Source of the DNA: a virus
Strand: one strand, 5' to 3'
DNA length: 22,331 nucleotides
Virus record (IMG/VR): IMGVR_UViG_3300042463_001379
Location: 1 to 22,331 of that record
Position numbers and translations under genes: made by a program. Positions within the stretch are counted from its first letter, which is position 1. Every line of letters starts with the position of its first letter. Below the pieces are notes generated by a model, which saw only the letters and a list, made by a program, of their open reading frames with translations, made no database searches and was not told the DNA's origin. This document shows, piece after piece, positions 10,012 to 22,061 of the stretch.

Positions 10012-13999
<3,988 letters not shown>

Positions 14000-14765: not shown

Positions 14766-16055
14766 ATGCCAATTTCAAGAATTGAAACAAGCGTCGCGCG
14801 CATCGGAAATGATTCCGTCTATGGGACTGGCTCCGATGGCGATGTAACAATAAGCGGAACTGTGACGCTTACAAAAGATATGTACTACAAAAACTTGACT
14901 GTCCCTCTTGGTAATGTTTTACTGACCGACGGGTTTAGAGTTTTTGTACAAAATACAGCAACTATCAATGGTGTTGTTGGAATTGGCACAGTAACTGGAA
15001 ACACAAACAATGTTTCAAATGGAACAATTACAAGTCCTGGAAGTGCAACATCAACAAAAACAGCACCTGGGCATATAACAAGTAGTATTTCATACAGAGT
15101 TGGAGGTCAAGGAGGCGGAGGTACCTCTCCGTCAGTCCCAGTCCTACCATCTTATTTAGTAAATCGTGTCGAATCAATGACTGGTCTGTTAATAGATGGC
15201 TCACTAGCAACAACACCAGTAAGCATTTCTGGTGGTTCAAAGGGGACTACTGGTAGTTCTGGAACTACTGCGCTCGCTAGAACCAATAGCGACTCATGGA
15301 GTGGAAAGGCTGGAAGTGCTGGTTCAAATGGTGGATACACGTCTACAGTAAATGCTCCTGGAGGAAAGGGAAATACCGGAGGAGCAGGAACTGCAACAGG
15401 CGCTACCAACGGAGCAGGCGGAGCAGGCGGAGCAGGCGGCAACGGTGGTCCAGTAATTGTTTTGGTAGCAAAATATATTTCTGGCTCTGGTACGATTATG
15501 TCGCTTGGAATGAGTGGAGCGTCTGGTTCTGCTGGGAGCACTGGCTCTCCTGGAACTGCAGGTCAAGGTCCAGTTGCTTATAACTCTGGTACTCAAAGAG
15601 GGACGGCTGGAACTGACTTAAATGACGGGCACCAGGCTCCAAGCCTTACCCATCAAAACCATCACCACTACACTGCGTCAACCCATCATGGCCATCATGG
15701 CGTTCATACACATCATCACTATGTTGCCCACGACGCTAAAAACGGTGACTACCACGTTTGTTGCACTTCTGGTCATCACCATGCCTGCTGCTCTTACCAT
15801 ACACATGACGCATGTTGCACGAGAGGCGCCGACTCCCACTATGCAGGAGGAGCGGGAGGAGCGGGGGGTGCTGCTGCGCCTGCTGTAACTGGTGGAACAG
15901 GAAAAAGAGGCGGCGCAGGCGGCGGTGGGGCTGTTATTATGATTACAGAAGCAGCACCGTCAAGCCTTAACTATGATGTCAGGTCTGGGACAACGTCTGA
16001 CTCAGATACATTTTCTGGCTCTTCAGGAAGTGTATACACAATTCTAAATAGTTAA
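14766..16055 (+). CDS. Gly-rich tail-tip protein B with His/Cys metal-binding-like segment
   Basis: The 429-residue protein shares with its upstream neighbour the modules VYGTGSDGD, TKDMYYKNLTVP and DGFRVFVQN (residues ~18-65). Residues ~100-280 are Gly/Ser/Ala-rich, with many GGAGG-type runs and the strands VIVLVAKYISGSG. Residues 289-358 contain 21 His and 6 Cys, including NHHHY, HTHHHY, VCCTSGHHHACC and HTHDACC, with three Cys-Cys pairs. This strongly suggests binding of transition metal such as zinc, iron, nickel or copper. The end returns to Gly-rich loops and a short strand tail. T4-like long tail fibres bind iron through HxH motifs, a useful but unproven comparison. It is the last clear tail gene of the block. 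Confidence 0.7.
   Translation: MPISRIETSVARIGNDSVYGTGSDGDVTISGTVTLTKDMYYKNLTVPLGNVLLTDGFRVFVQNTATINGVVGIGTVTGNTNNVSNGTITSPGSATSTKTAPGHITSSISYRVGGQGGGGTSPSVPVLPSYLVNRVESMTGLLIDGSLATTPVSISGGSKGTTGSSGTTALARTNSDSWSGKAGSAGSNGGYTSTVNAPGGKGNTGGAGTATGATNGAGGAGGAGGNGGPVIVLVAKYISGSGTIMSLGMSGASGSAGSTGSPGTAGQGPVAYNSGTQRGTAGTDLNDGHQAPSLTHQNHHHYTASTHHGHHGVHTHHHYVAHDAKNGDYHVCCTSGHHHACCSYHTHDACCTRGADSHYAGGAGGAGGAAAPAVTGGTGKRGGAGGGGAVIMITEAAPSSLNYDVRSGTTSDSDTFSGSSGSVYTILNS
15411..15437 (+). repeat. 9-bp tandem repeat, three copies (GGAGCAGGC)
   Basis: Three perfect copies encode Gly-Ala-Gly triplets inside the Gly-rich part of tail-tip protein B. Like the longer repeat in the giant fibre gene, length change would keep the frame. 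Confidence 0.75.
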
Positions 16056-17411: not shown

Positions 17412-18905
17412 ATGCAAACAAAAAATATGTCTATTGGCATTGTTGGTTCTGGTACTGCTGGATTGATCACAGCGTTAACACTAAGAAAAGCGTTCCCAAG
17501 CTCAGAAATAACAATCGTAGCGTCTTCAAAAATTGGAATCATTGGTGTTGGCGAAGGCTCGACTGAGCATTGGCGTCAGTTTATGGACCTATGCAATATC
17601 CCAACAGAAGAACTTATTTCAAACACTTCAGCAACGCACAAGTACGGGATTAGGTTTGAAAACTGGACAGAGAAGATTCCGGACTATTTTCATAGCGTTA
17701 GCGGACCTGATGAAATTTTTGCGCACGGACTATTTGCATCTTACTTGCATTTTATAGAAAATGAAAAACTAATCACTTCTCAAACAGCGAGTATTGGATT
17801 AGTAAGAAATCAAGTAGCAAGACAAAATCTGCATAGAACAACAAATCAATTTCATTTTGACACATTTAAACTTAATGATTATTTGACAAGCTTGTGCTTT
17901 AGCAGGATGATTAGATTTATTGATGATTCTGTAAGCAAAGTTAATCTTAACTTTGAAAATGGTTGTATTGACTCTGTTGATACAGAATTAAGCGGATGCA
18001 TTTCTGCCGACTTTTGGTTTGACGCTAGTGGTTTTAACAGAGTATTGATGACATCTCTTGGGAATACTAAGTGGACTAGTTTTTCTCCGTACTTGCTTGC
18101 TGATTCCGCAATAGCATTCCCAACGGAGTCTGACCCAAATGGGCAAATAAGGCCGTACACACGGGCACGTGCAATGAGTAGCGGTTGGGTGTTTGAAATT
18201 CCCACTCAAGAACGGCGTGGAAATGGGTATGTTTATTCATCTGCTCACATAAGTCAAGATGAAGCGATTAACGAAGTGCAGCAACTGACGGGATACAAAG
18301 TTCCAGACAATCCCAGAACTTTTAAGTTTGACGCCGGGTTCTTAGAAACCCAGTGGGTAAAAAATTGTGTTGCGGTTGGGCTTGCGTCGTCTTTTGTTGA
18401 ACCTCTTGAGGCGACAAGTATTGGTAGCAGCATCATTCAGGCAAAGTCAATAATAGAAAGTCTTTCTTCGTATCAACATGGATATGAAAAAATACAAAAC
18501 AAATACAATAAAAACATGACAGAAATGATGAGAAATATATTGACGATGATTCGTCTTCACTACATTTCCGATAGGAGAGATACTCCTTTTTGGAAAGCGC
18601 AAGCAGAAATGCGGATAAATTCAGAACTGCAAGAGCTTATTGAATTGTGGTCAGAAAAACCACCATCTCGGTACGACATTTCAGGAAAACATAACACGAT
18701 GTTTCATGTCCCACACTTTGTGCACGTCATGCAAGGCCAGGGTTTGATTCCAACCACCCCTTCATCAGTTGCTATTGACAGAATGGGTCTTAGAGAAATT
18801 GTTACAAAAGAAGTTCATGACATTAGAAACAGTAGACACTCTCACGAACTTGTTGACCATCGTCAAGCGCTACTTGAGATAGACGAAATAGACGATGAAT
18901 TCTAG
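17412..18905 (+). CDS. Flavin-dependent tryptophan-halogenase homologue
   Basis: The 497-residue protein belongs to FAD-dependent halogenases, which use reduced flavin, oxygen and halide to halogenate tryptophan or other aromatic substrates. The dinucleotide-binding motif is G12-S-G14-T-A-G17. The region IGVGEGSTEHWRQF...ATHKYGIRFENW matches the PrnA/RebH family and places the catalytic Lys at 77. VEPLEATSI (from Glu330) matches the segment that carries the active-site Glu. The family motif WxWxIP appears as GWVFEIP (W-x-F-x-I-P), followed by GNGYVYSS. Length is close to the usual ~500-540 residues. Cyanophages carry related genes, and one (VirX1) has been characterised as an iodinating halogenase. 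The substrate cannot be predicted. It overlaps the next gene by 11 bp. Confidence 0.88.
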   Translation: MQTKNMSIGIVGSGTAGLITALTLRKAFPSSEITIVASSKIGIIGVGEGSTEHWRQFMDLCNIPTEELISNTSATHKYGIRFENWTEKIPDYFHSVSGPDEIFAHGLFASYLHFIENEKLITSQTASIGLVRNQVARQNLHRTTNQFHFDTFKLNDYLTSLCFSRMIRFIDDSVSKVNLNFENGCIDSVDTELSGCISADFWFDASGFNRVLMTSLGNTKWTSFSPYLLADSAIAFPTESDPNGQIRPYTRARAMSSGWVFEIPTQERRGNGYVYSSAHISQDEAINEVQQLTGYKVPDNPRTFKFDAGFLETQWVKNCVAVGLASSFVEPLEATSIGSSIIQAKSIIESLSSYQHGYEKIQNKYNKNMTEMMRNILTMIRLHYISDRRDTPFWKAQAEMRINSELQELIELWSEKPPSRYDISGKHNTMFHVPHFVHVMQGQGLIPTTPSSVAIDRMGLREIVTKEVHDIRNSRHSHELVDHRQALLEIDEIDDEF

Positions 18906-20995: not shown

Positions 20996-21148
20996 ATGGA
21001 AATCAATACACAAGTCGTAATTGAAGATCTTCTCGAGCAGAACAAGCAGCTTACTCTTCAGCTTTCAGTTGCTCGTGCAGCAATCAGTCAACTTCAGGCG
21101 CAGATTCAGGAGCTGACACAACAGGCAAGCTCCGAGAACGAGAAGTAG
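20996..21148 (+). CDS. Short coiled-coil protein, 50 aa
   Basis: The ORF MEINTQVVIEDLLEQNKQL... encodes 50 residues with hydrophobic positions spaced at heptad intervals (LLEQNKQLTLQLSVARAAI and SQLQAQIQELTQQ), so a parallel coiled coil is likely. TAGGAG lies close upstream of the ATG, and it follows the glycosyltransferase by 9 nt. Its 3' end runs 65 nt into the end of the convergent WhiB gene. It may be an oligomerisation or anti-repressor-like protein; function unknown. Confidence 0.65.
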   Translation: MEINTQVVIEDLLEQNKQLTLQLSVARAAISQLQAQIQELTQQASSENEK

Positions 21149-21611
21149 TCTTAGACTTCTTAGCGTTTCTACTTGCGTGGTAGGCATTTACAGCATTTGC
21201 ACTTGTTCTACTTCGCCATGTGAATTCGCATTCTGAGCAGACAACCAATTTCATAGTCGTCCAACGCCCACCGCCAGGCGCGTCTTTTATTTCGACACTT
21301 AATTTGCTTGGGCGTGCTCCGCAGTACGGGCAATTTGGAAAACGTTGACGGCGGATTTCTTGCCCTGTATGAGAAACTGAAAGAGCACGGCGAAGTTCTG
21401 ACTCGTCTTTTCCACCCCAGATACCCCAAATTTGTTTGTTGTCAAGTGCCCACTTGAGACATGTGCGTCTTACAGGGCAGTTAAAGCACAGATTCTTAGC
21501 ATCATACTTTTCGCTAAGAACACTTGAAAAGAAAAAAGGTTTAAGTCGTTTATTTTCTGGTTTCTTACACTCGGCATCTTCGTGCCACGAAATGTCGCCA
21601 AACTTAGACAT
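21084..21611 (-). CDS. WhiB-family regulator fused to a zinc ribbon
   Basis: WhiB proteins bind a [4Fe-4S] cluster through four Cys and regulate transcription by contacting the main sigma factor. Here the four are Cys15, Cys42, Cys45 and Cys51 (C-x26-C-x2-C-x5-C), followed by the usual GIWGG turn and a basic helix. At 175 residues it is longer than common WhiB proteins (~80-120). A second module at 94-128 has two CxxC pairs (NCPYCGARP and VVCSECEFTW), a zinc-ribbon pattern, with a Ser/Lys-rich tail. Phage WhiB proteins may alter host transcription. The last 65 nt of the gene overlap the convergent coiled-coil gene; its start overlaps the upstream gene by 8 bp. Confidence 0.88.
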   Translation of the reverse strand: MSKFGDISWHEDAECKKPENKRLKPFFFSSVLSEKYDAKNLCFNCPVRRTCLKWALDNKQIWGIWGGKDESELRRALSVSHTGQEIRRQRFPNCPYCGARPSKLSVEIKDAPGGGRWTTMKLVVCSECEFTWRSRTSANAVNAYHASRNAKKSKTTSRSRSLPVVSAPESAPEVD

Positions 21612-21963
21612 AGAAGTCGACCCAGGTTATTTCTAAAACCTCGTCTACTTCGTCACCTTCACGCGTCTCTCCAAGCTCATCACAGACTGCGAAGTCAACA
21701 TCGCTGTCAACTATGCCAGCAAATCCGTGAGTCACTCGTGCTCGTTCAACAAGTCGAAACCCGTCTCCCAAAGTCACTGCTGAACCGTCTCTCTGCAATG
21801 CAGAAGCCAGTGCTCTACTGACTACTTCATGTTCAATATCGATGTGCCCCTGTGTAAAGAAGATTGGCTCTGAAGAATCAGAACTAAATCCATCTCCAGT
21901 CCATTCAGACCACAGGCACTCACCGGTTCTTAGGTCCCGCATGTTCTTATAATTATACACCAT
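21604..21963 (-). CDS. Acidic unknown protein upstream of WhiB
   Basis: This 119-residue protein (or 112 from an inner ATG at 21942) is acidic, with Asp/Glu-rich segments (SSDSSEP, DSDVDFAVCDELGETREG) and a beta-like FRLVERARVTHGFAGIV. A TATAAT at 21952-21957 lies inside the first codons, which would put the transcription start almost at the inner ATG; a leaderless start there is possible. Its stop overlaps the WhiB start by 8 bp, indicating a two-gene operon. No family is recognised. Confidence 0.5.
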   Translation of the reverse strand: MVYNYKNMRDLRTGECLWSEWTGDGFSSDSSEPIFFTQGHIDIEHEVVSRALASALQRDGSAVTLGDGFRLVERARVTHGFAGIVDSDVDFAVCDELGETREGDEVDEVLEITWVDFYV

Positions 21964-21964
21964 A

Positions 21965-22061
21965 AGGCGGCTCTCAGGCGGCTACTAGACGGTAGTACCT
22001 ACAAATATCAGTTTCTATTTACAAGTTATTAGAGCGGCTCTGAGTGGCTTCTAAACTGATA
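21965..22061. repeat. Direct and inverted repeats in promoter region
   Basis: AGGCGGCT occurs at 21965-21972 and 21976-21983, and near-copies AGCGGCT (22033-22039) and AGTGGCT (22043-22049) recur as a second pair with similar spacing. In between, TATCAGTTT (22006-22014) and AAACTGATA (22053-22061) are perfect inverted copies. The cluster lies in the 113-nt gap upstream of the minus-strand acidic gene/WhiB pair, so it may be an operator array. Confidence 0.55.

Follow-up and report, generated by a model that had tools for sequence, protein, structure and literature searches.

The window, by which we mean the whole stretch of DNA that was analysed (a virus record of 22331 bases), carries on its minus strand a gene at 21084..21611 (stop codon counted) that starts with ATG and encodes a protein of 175 aa, referred to here as the fusion. 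A Wbl (WhiB) domain occupies aa 5-80 (21372..21599), as judged from a Pfam match, an alignment and a fold match to WhiB3, WhiB7 and WhiB1. It is followed by a basic linker and a ribbon-like module spanning aa 82-150 (21162..21368), delimited from conserved cysteines and a structural model, and by a variable C-terminal tail of aa 151-175 (21087..21161). The gene directly upstream on the same strand, called the partner, lies at 21604..21942 and encodes 112 aa when read from its conserved start (the mechanical ORF starts at 21963); it overlaps the start of the fusion by 8 nt. The minus strand also carries a TATAAT -10 box at 21952..21957, 9 nt before the conserved ATG of the partner, and two pairs of half-sites. 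The proximal pair, TAGTAGCCGCC/TGAGAGCCGCC, is located at 21966..21987 near the expected -35 position, and the distal pair, TTAGAAGCCAC/TCAGAGCCGCT, was located at 22033..22054 by motif search and inspection. Both pairs are arranged as 11-bp tandems and lie between the partner start and the upstream gene.

Neighbouring genes in the window encode a tryptophan halogenase, collagen-like repeats, a glycosyltransferase, a Prim-Pol/D5 primase and a resolvase. The flavin-dependent halogenase (17412-18905, plus strand; Pfam 3.8e-102, PHROG 2928) is found near the glycosyltransferase gene, and its surroundings are similar in DSL-LC01, a metagenome-assembled phage from Dishui Lake in which glycosyltransferase, halogenase and collagen genes are convergent to the phage's own WhiB fusion. 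A glycine-rich ORF of 429 aa (14766-16055, plus strand) adjoins the collagen-like region and contains a His/Cys-rich patch, HHHHYTASTHHGHHGVHTHHHY ... CCTSGHHHACCSYHTHDACC, which is possibly metal-binding. After the glycosyltransferase gene comes a coiled-coil-like ORF of 50 aa (20996-21148, plus strand), the 3' end of which overlaps that of the WhiB fusion in antisense by 65 nt.

Domain layout and structure of the fusion

Residues 9-75 of the fusion match the Pfam family Whib (PF02467) with 62.3 bits (E 6.2e-17), the curated cut-off being 23.6. The cysteines of the Wbl domain are C15, C42xxC45 and C51, and four more, at positions 94, 97, 125 and 128, belong to the ribbon-like module. Translation and alignment place these in two CxxC pairs on the minus strand, CPYC (aa 94-97, 21321..21332) and CSEC (aa 125-128, 21228..21239), with 27 residues between them (CPYC-x27-CSEC). 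An earlier note on this DNA had described four WhiB cysteines followed about 40 residues later by two CxxC pairs within 175 aa, and we found this to be accurate, counting 42 residues between C51 and C94. The linker and ribbon follow the pattern RRQRFPNC94PYC97 ... GGRW ... C125SEC128EFTWRSRTSxN. The glycine turn of the Wbl domain reads GIWGG (residues 63-67) and is preceded by KQIW, while the AT-hook RGRP and the EPW triplet of the WhiB7 type are both missing from the translation.

WhiB domains hold a [4Fe-4S] cluster, and the module thus counts as one zinc-ribbon-like unit beside the Wbl domain. The earlier note had spoken of a second zinc-ribbon module; a Wbl domain is indeed joined to a conserved ribbon-like module, but there is just one such module and not a second. 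It is probably metal-binding, and we infer zinc as the metal.

An AlphaFold model of the fusion, built from 27 sequences, was weak overall (mean pLDDT 62, pTM 0.45), with block-mean pLDDT mostly of 71-87 in the ribbon region. The modelled ribbon is three-stranded (residues 104-110, 119-125 and 131-133), with a helix from residue 135. When the model was submitted to a structural aligner, WhiB3, WhiB7 and WhiB1 came out on top (Z 4.3-4.6 over 58-64 residues), and the ribbons of Rpb9, NrdR and TFIIS ranked next (Z 2.9-3.4 over 41-48 residues), at scores that unrelated chains reach alike. Foldseek returned nothing at E<=0.001 for the full fusion against the PDB. The best PDB profile match of the family was 8dy9, 'Transcriptional regulator WhiB', which we take to be a Streptomyces protein, and the Rpb9-like chain 1qyp appeared in the profile search at a non-significant E of 0.38. 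In family scans of the ribbon, the window protein stayed under the curated cut-offs. With E<=1 as the limit, 17 of 25 members hit the FdhE central domain (PF24859), the best at 2.6e-4, and the window protein scored 15.5 bits for a cut-off of 27; the Lar restriction-alleviation family (PF14354) was hit by 4 of the 25 (best 0.012); a Lar-like PHROG match of the fusion stood at 0.019. The modelled fold supports, with moderate confidence, a predicted membership of the module in the structural class of zinc ribbons, with family and function unspecified.

Conservation and distribution of the fusion

Relatives were gathered in seven scans of IMG/VR viral contigs. Searching with the window protein gave 150 confirmed stretches. 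Two scans with alignment queries gave 509 and 474, and the 80 best of each were used. Among the loci collected, 389 complete fusion ORFs reduced to 164 distinct proteins (distinctness being counted from the first cysteine onward), and all 164 have the pattern of four plus four cysteines. The spacing between the CxxC pairs is 27 residues in 162 of them and 21 in the other 2. Across 25 diverse aligned relatives, with identity down to 29%, the eight cysteines are invariant. The earlier note had staked its reading on the CxxC pairs being conserved in close homologues, and every one of the 164 distinct relatives keeps them.

Substitution patterns between the window protein and six relatives indicated that the linker and ribbon are held by strong purifying selection, with pN of 0.09-0.15, pS of 0.72-0.88 and pN/pS of 0.11-0.18. 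The WhiB domain gave an equally low pN of 0.08-0.17, and over the two regions pS is 0.69-0.88, which is saturated or nearly so. Five of the six comparisons gave values for the C-terminal tail (pN 0.25-0.61, pS 0.30-0.84, pN/pS 0.73-0.91), which looks almost free of constraint. A hand count in a 27-member alignment found 21 invariant columns in residues 5-81 and 28 in residues 82-150, so that conservation of the ribbon is at least that of the Wbl domain. Invariant residues in this alignment include Arg87, Arg88, Arg116, Trp132, Arg135, Ser137 and Asn139. Within the Wbl domain, a Trp six residues ahead of a Cys is present in 162 of the 164 distinct fusions, and 159 of 163 have a Trp in their glycine turn, the turn reading GIWGG or GVWGG in 153, GTWGG in 5, GTRGG in 3, and GIWAG and GTRAG in 1 each.

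The same domain pair, which the earlier note had proposed to seek in other phages, is present in many, both IMG/VR contigs and annotated phages. A tblastn search of a phage collection with the whole fusion matched 261 records, most of them ordinary Wbl matches and 2 covering at least 80% of the query. The ribbon alone matched 8 records at E<1e-3, from Microbacterium phages and DSL-LC01, and the ninth match listed was short and partial (E 0.9). All 8 sit in genes annotated WhiB, and no stand-alone ribbon gene was seen among them. Similarly, 244 of 244 ribbon ORFs also carry WhiB, a count biased toward fusions since the loci were mostly fetched with WhiB-ribbon or partner queries. Single-sequence scans returned no relatives for the Pumpernickel protein and 1 for the Racecar protein. 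A bacterial origin was looked for with two pattern scans of a genome collection, in which none of 32 and none of 42 candidates held up; the patterns were so narrow that even host Wbl proteins were missed, and these counts are no evidence of absence from bacteria. Among plasmids, 203 records match the fusion, none of them with a query coverage of 80% or more. A Wbl protein of a Streptomyces plasmid (NZ_CP023408.1, 162588-162869) aligns to query residues 6-123 at 32% identity, and the match extends into the ribbon.

The same fusion is found in Pumpernickel gp105 and A3Wally gp108 of Microbacterium phages, in WJZ48551.1 of DSL-LC01 and in gp193 of Arthrobacter phage Racecar, all annotated 'WhiB family' in public records with the ribbon unmentioned. 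In the Microbacterium phage fusions the turn reads GTR(G/A)G, and the pI of three of them is acidic; the Racecar fusion has a CxxC-pair spacing of 21 and no partner gene. DSL-LC01 carries its fusion at 100673 and a short WhiB gene at 38673; a third ORF with a WhiB domain, at ~12689-13225 on the plus strand, is not annotated as WhiB. We conclude that the fusion is a real and recurrent variant of the known WhiB regulator family in actinobacterial phages. It is already public as 'WhiB family', to which the present analysis adds its ribbon, its partner and the layout of the promoter.

The partner gene and its promoter

Partner and WhiB-ribbon fusion, in this order, make up a two-gene cassette, a linkage that the earlier note did not mention. 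Counting the best 80 rows per scan, with the same contigs recurring among scans, the partner lies directly upstream of the fusion in 237 of 240 fusion rows (78/80, 79/80 and 80/80 in three scans), and of 160 partner rows, 148 have the fusion downstream (75/80 and 73/80 in two scans). All 3 and 12 exceptions, respectively, are contig ends. The ribbon is present in six of nine annotated-phage loci, and an HMM detected the partner in five of those six, Racecar being the exception; the gene upstream of the Racecar fusion was considered as a distant partner and discarded, as it had no similarity. A tblastn search of the phage collection with the partner found 7 records, all of them fusion-carrying phages. 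In a divergent branch, an extra short wbl gene is seen just upstream of the pair (1977-2285 in locus L079, ~1928-2224 in L078), and in L079 one short gene separates it from the pair.

The partner is strongly acidic (net charge -16 and pI 4.2 for the 119-aa form), with pI 4.05-4.43 in 23 of 23 sequences, whereas 22 of 25 fusions are basic (pI 8.75-9.89), the three acidic ones coming from Microbacterium phages. No Pfam or PHROG family matched the partner. Its model was fairly confident (pLDDT 82), and no PDB entry matched it with E<=0.001 or with Z>=5; among predicted structures of viruses, four that are nameless or without function resemble it at E 0.0036-0.015. The partner defines a widespread, unannotated family.

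From the position of the -10 box, the partner-fusion mRNA is likely leaderless. Of 52 distinct upstream regions, 29 have a -10-like hexamer at a distance of 6-10 nt to the start codon. The half-sites were first spotted by eye in the window promoter and then put to statistical tests. From 53 distinct upstream regions, the coding-like region of locus L107 and those shorter than 80 nt were excluded, leaving 47, with a strict subset of 32, and the motif search was confined to intergenic DNA. In the 47 regions it returned two motifs, ATACAAT, which is -10-like, and a tandem motif of 22 bp. The width-22 motif CTCAGangcncTtAGAGaCaCT, in the distal part, reached a log-likelihood of 276.9 as against 65.4-76.3 in six shuffled sets, a score inflated by common descent as the motif was learned on related sequences. 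Internal repeats exceeded shuffles at lag 10 (z 8.4) and lag 12 (z 5.6); they did not at lag 11 (z 0.8), which is the spacing within the half-site pairs of the window. When the 32 strictly de-duplicated promoters were ranked against control segments of the same locus (p<=0.05), lag 10 stood out in 10 and lag 12 in 2, with lags 8, 9, 11 and 13 in 0, 2, 3 and 1, respectively. An automatic repeat finder reported no repeat in the promoter.

Scanning the complete phage DSL-LC01 (in three pieces) and the window with the 22-mer motif gave matches at about the shuffled level, so that no regulon is visible there. Tandem half-sites beside a -10 box belong to the window's branch. In the divergent branch, a different gene ends just ahead of the partner (the median spacing over 156 cases is 3 nt), which leaves no space for a promoter, and the half-sites are thus not general. 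For the same reason, the held-out promoter test was limited to 1 usable promoter in that branch, in which no site was seen (0/1). The earlier note had suggested that the fusion could bind both sigma factor and a second target such as RNA polymerase or DNA, as a form of host takeover; the sole promoter clue suggests that control would be exerted first on the phage's own operon.

Candidate functions and known systems

We favour, at a probability of roughly 40%, a reading in which the fusion would be a WhiB7-like phage transcription factor whose zinc ribbon replaces the AT-hook. The Wbl domain would carry a [4Fe-4S] cluster and dock onto region 4 of the host sigma-A, and the ribbon would contact promoter DNA, with the tandem half-sites as the first candidate. 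In this way, the fusion would guide host RNA polymerase towards or away from the operon of the phage itself, and possibly further promoters. The operon would be autoregulated, the fusion being an activator or repressor that acts first on its own promoter, and the co-translated acidic partner would bind the mostly basic fusion and tune it. According to section 5 of PMC10245118, F31, F32 and W76 of WhiB3 (equivalent to F17, F18 and W60 of WhiB1) are each needed for binding to region 4 of sigma-A. In our alignment, the docking aromatics W3, F17, F18 and W60 of WhiB1 correspond to W9, F27, F28 and W65 of the window protein, and the presence of these counterparts makes docking of the fusion on sigma-A region 4 plausible. 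WhiB7, as described in the accessible part of PMC3905903, is an autoregulatory activator that binds region 4 of SigA, with its AT-hook binding just upstream of the -35 hexamer. Set against the WhiB7-like reading are the Arg at the W60 counterpart in 4 of 163 distinct fusions, all of the Microbacterium phage type, the three acidic fusions, and Racecar with a ribbon and no partner, together with the motif scan at shuffled level in DSL-LC01, the divergent branch that lacks a promoter at this place, the inflated motif score and the weak full-length model. The fuller version, in which the cassette would be a self-contained phage promoter switch combining sigma-A capture, a helically phased tandem operator read by the ribbon, and control by the acidic partner with its unmatched fold, is more doubtful. 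If true, it would describe a phage-evolved Wbl class with its own DNA reader and partner that the searched papers do not describe, widespread in actinophages of environmental metagenomes.

Among the alternatives, the fusion could instead be a dominant-negative Wbl protein of the WhiB-TM4 type, competing with host WhiB1- or WhiB2-type proteins for sigma-A or WhiA sites so that septation stops and superinfection is blocked, with the ribbon contributing stability or affinity. We consider this possible, though unlikely. Excerpts of PMC11075535 list Girr gp57, Hammy gp53 and TM4 gp49 as cytotoxic, the top PDB profile match of the family is a WhiB regulator (8dy9), and the distal half-site consensus contains AGAGACACT, which includes GACAC, given as the WhiA core in the available text of PMC6282962. 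However, the half-sites of the window read GCCRC instead of GACAC, and the proposal leaves unexplained both the linked partner and why the ribbon, under the same constraint as the Wbl domain, is retained throughout.

The ribbon might also be a TFIIS/Rpb9-shaped contact with RNA polymerase, the WhiB domain sitting on sigma-A region 4 and the ribbon on the core enzyme. The alignments to Rpb9, TFIIS and NrdR ribbons and the 1qyp profile match point that way, but a Z of about 3 and an E of 0.38 are insignificant and unrelated folds score equally. The tip of the TFIIS ribbon has acidic residues, whereas the tip in the window protein is GGRW and lacks them, and we hold this reading to be improbable. 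About as little can be said for the partner being an antagonist, antitoxin-like or DNA-mimic-like, that would shield or titrate the fusion in a two-gene toxin-control module. A constant gene order (partner, then fusion), overlaps of 4-8 nt in many loci, the strongly opposite charges and the toxicity possible among phage Wbl proteins (PMC11075535, in part) are in keeping with it; the partner, however, has no clear match to an antitoxin or DNA-mimic fold or family, and the fusion is itself acidic in the three Microbacterium phages. That the extra CxxC pairs are functionless cysteines, arisen by chance or decaying, is ruled out for practical purposes by their retention in all 164 distinct complete relatives, the near-constant spacing and the purifying selection.

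Wbl proteins are among the commonest regulators of actinophage genomes. A large Wbl subgroup with its own module, promoter layout and partner offers a concrete handle, namely two small proteins and a short promoter that are tractable in vitro. Actinophage Wbl proteins serve as host markers (PMC6802176, available sections), and TM4 is called, in the accessible text of PMC8612146, the sole WhiB-encoding phage studied for WhiB function in infection. WhiB-TM4 (gp49 of mycobacteriophage TM4) and other actinophage Wbl proteins are phage-borne, as is the fusion, and neither a ribbon nor a partner is mentioned for them in the available portions of PMC8612146, PMC10202952, PMC6802176 and PMC10611076, the last of which names ORF69 and ORF135 of DSL-LC01 simply WhiB. 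In the open-licence literature, no paper was found that pairs Wbl with a zinc ribbon, or WhiB and Microbacterium phage with zinc, and the sole paper with WhiB, phage and zinc ribbon concerns DtxR. The Wbl review PMC6282962 contains neither 'phage' nor 'zinc', and PMC8612146 no 'zinc'.

Mycobacteriophages Fruitloop (gp55; L086 2956-3357) and MooMoo (gp58; L090 1465-1866) also encode a Wbl domain with four further cysteines (CxxC ... YCSxxC), as in the fusion, and gp55 of Fruitloop is annotated 'WhiB/HNH endonuclease'. They differ from it in cysteine pattern and spacing, are negative with the ribbon HMM and have no partner. Tails that bind metal may have been joined to Wbl domains on several occasions. 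A precedent for joining Wbl to a transcription module is WblP of the Streptomyces plasmid SCP1 (PMC6282962, available text), in which a Wbl domain is fused to an ECF sigma factor where the fusion carries a ribbon. Mycobacterial WhiB7 resembles the fusion in that its Wbl domain is succeeded by a distinct module at the C-terminus (PMC3905903 and PMC10245118, in the sections available). In WhiB7 this is an AT-hook (RGRP), and the turn is preceded by the triplet EPW. The fusion has a 69-aa linker-plus-ribbon and KQIW, and it is encoded in a two-gene operon with its partner.
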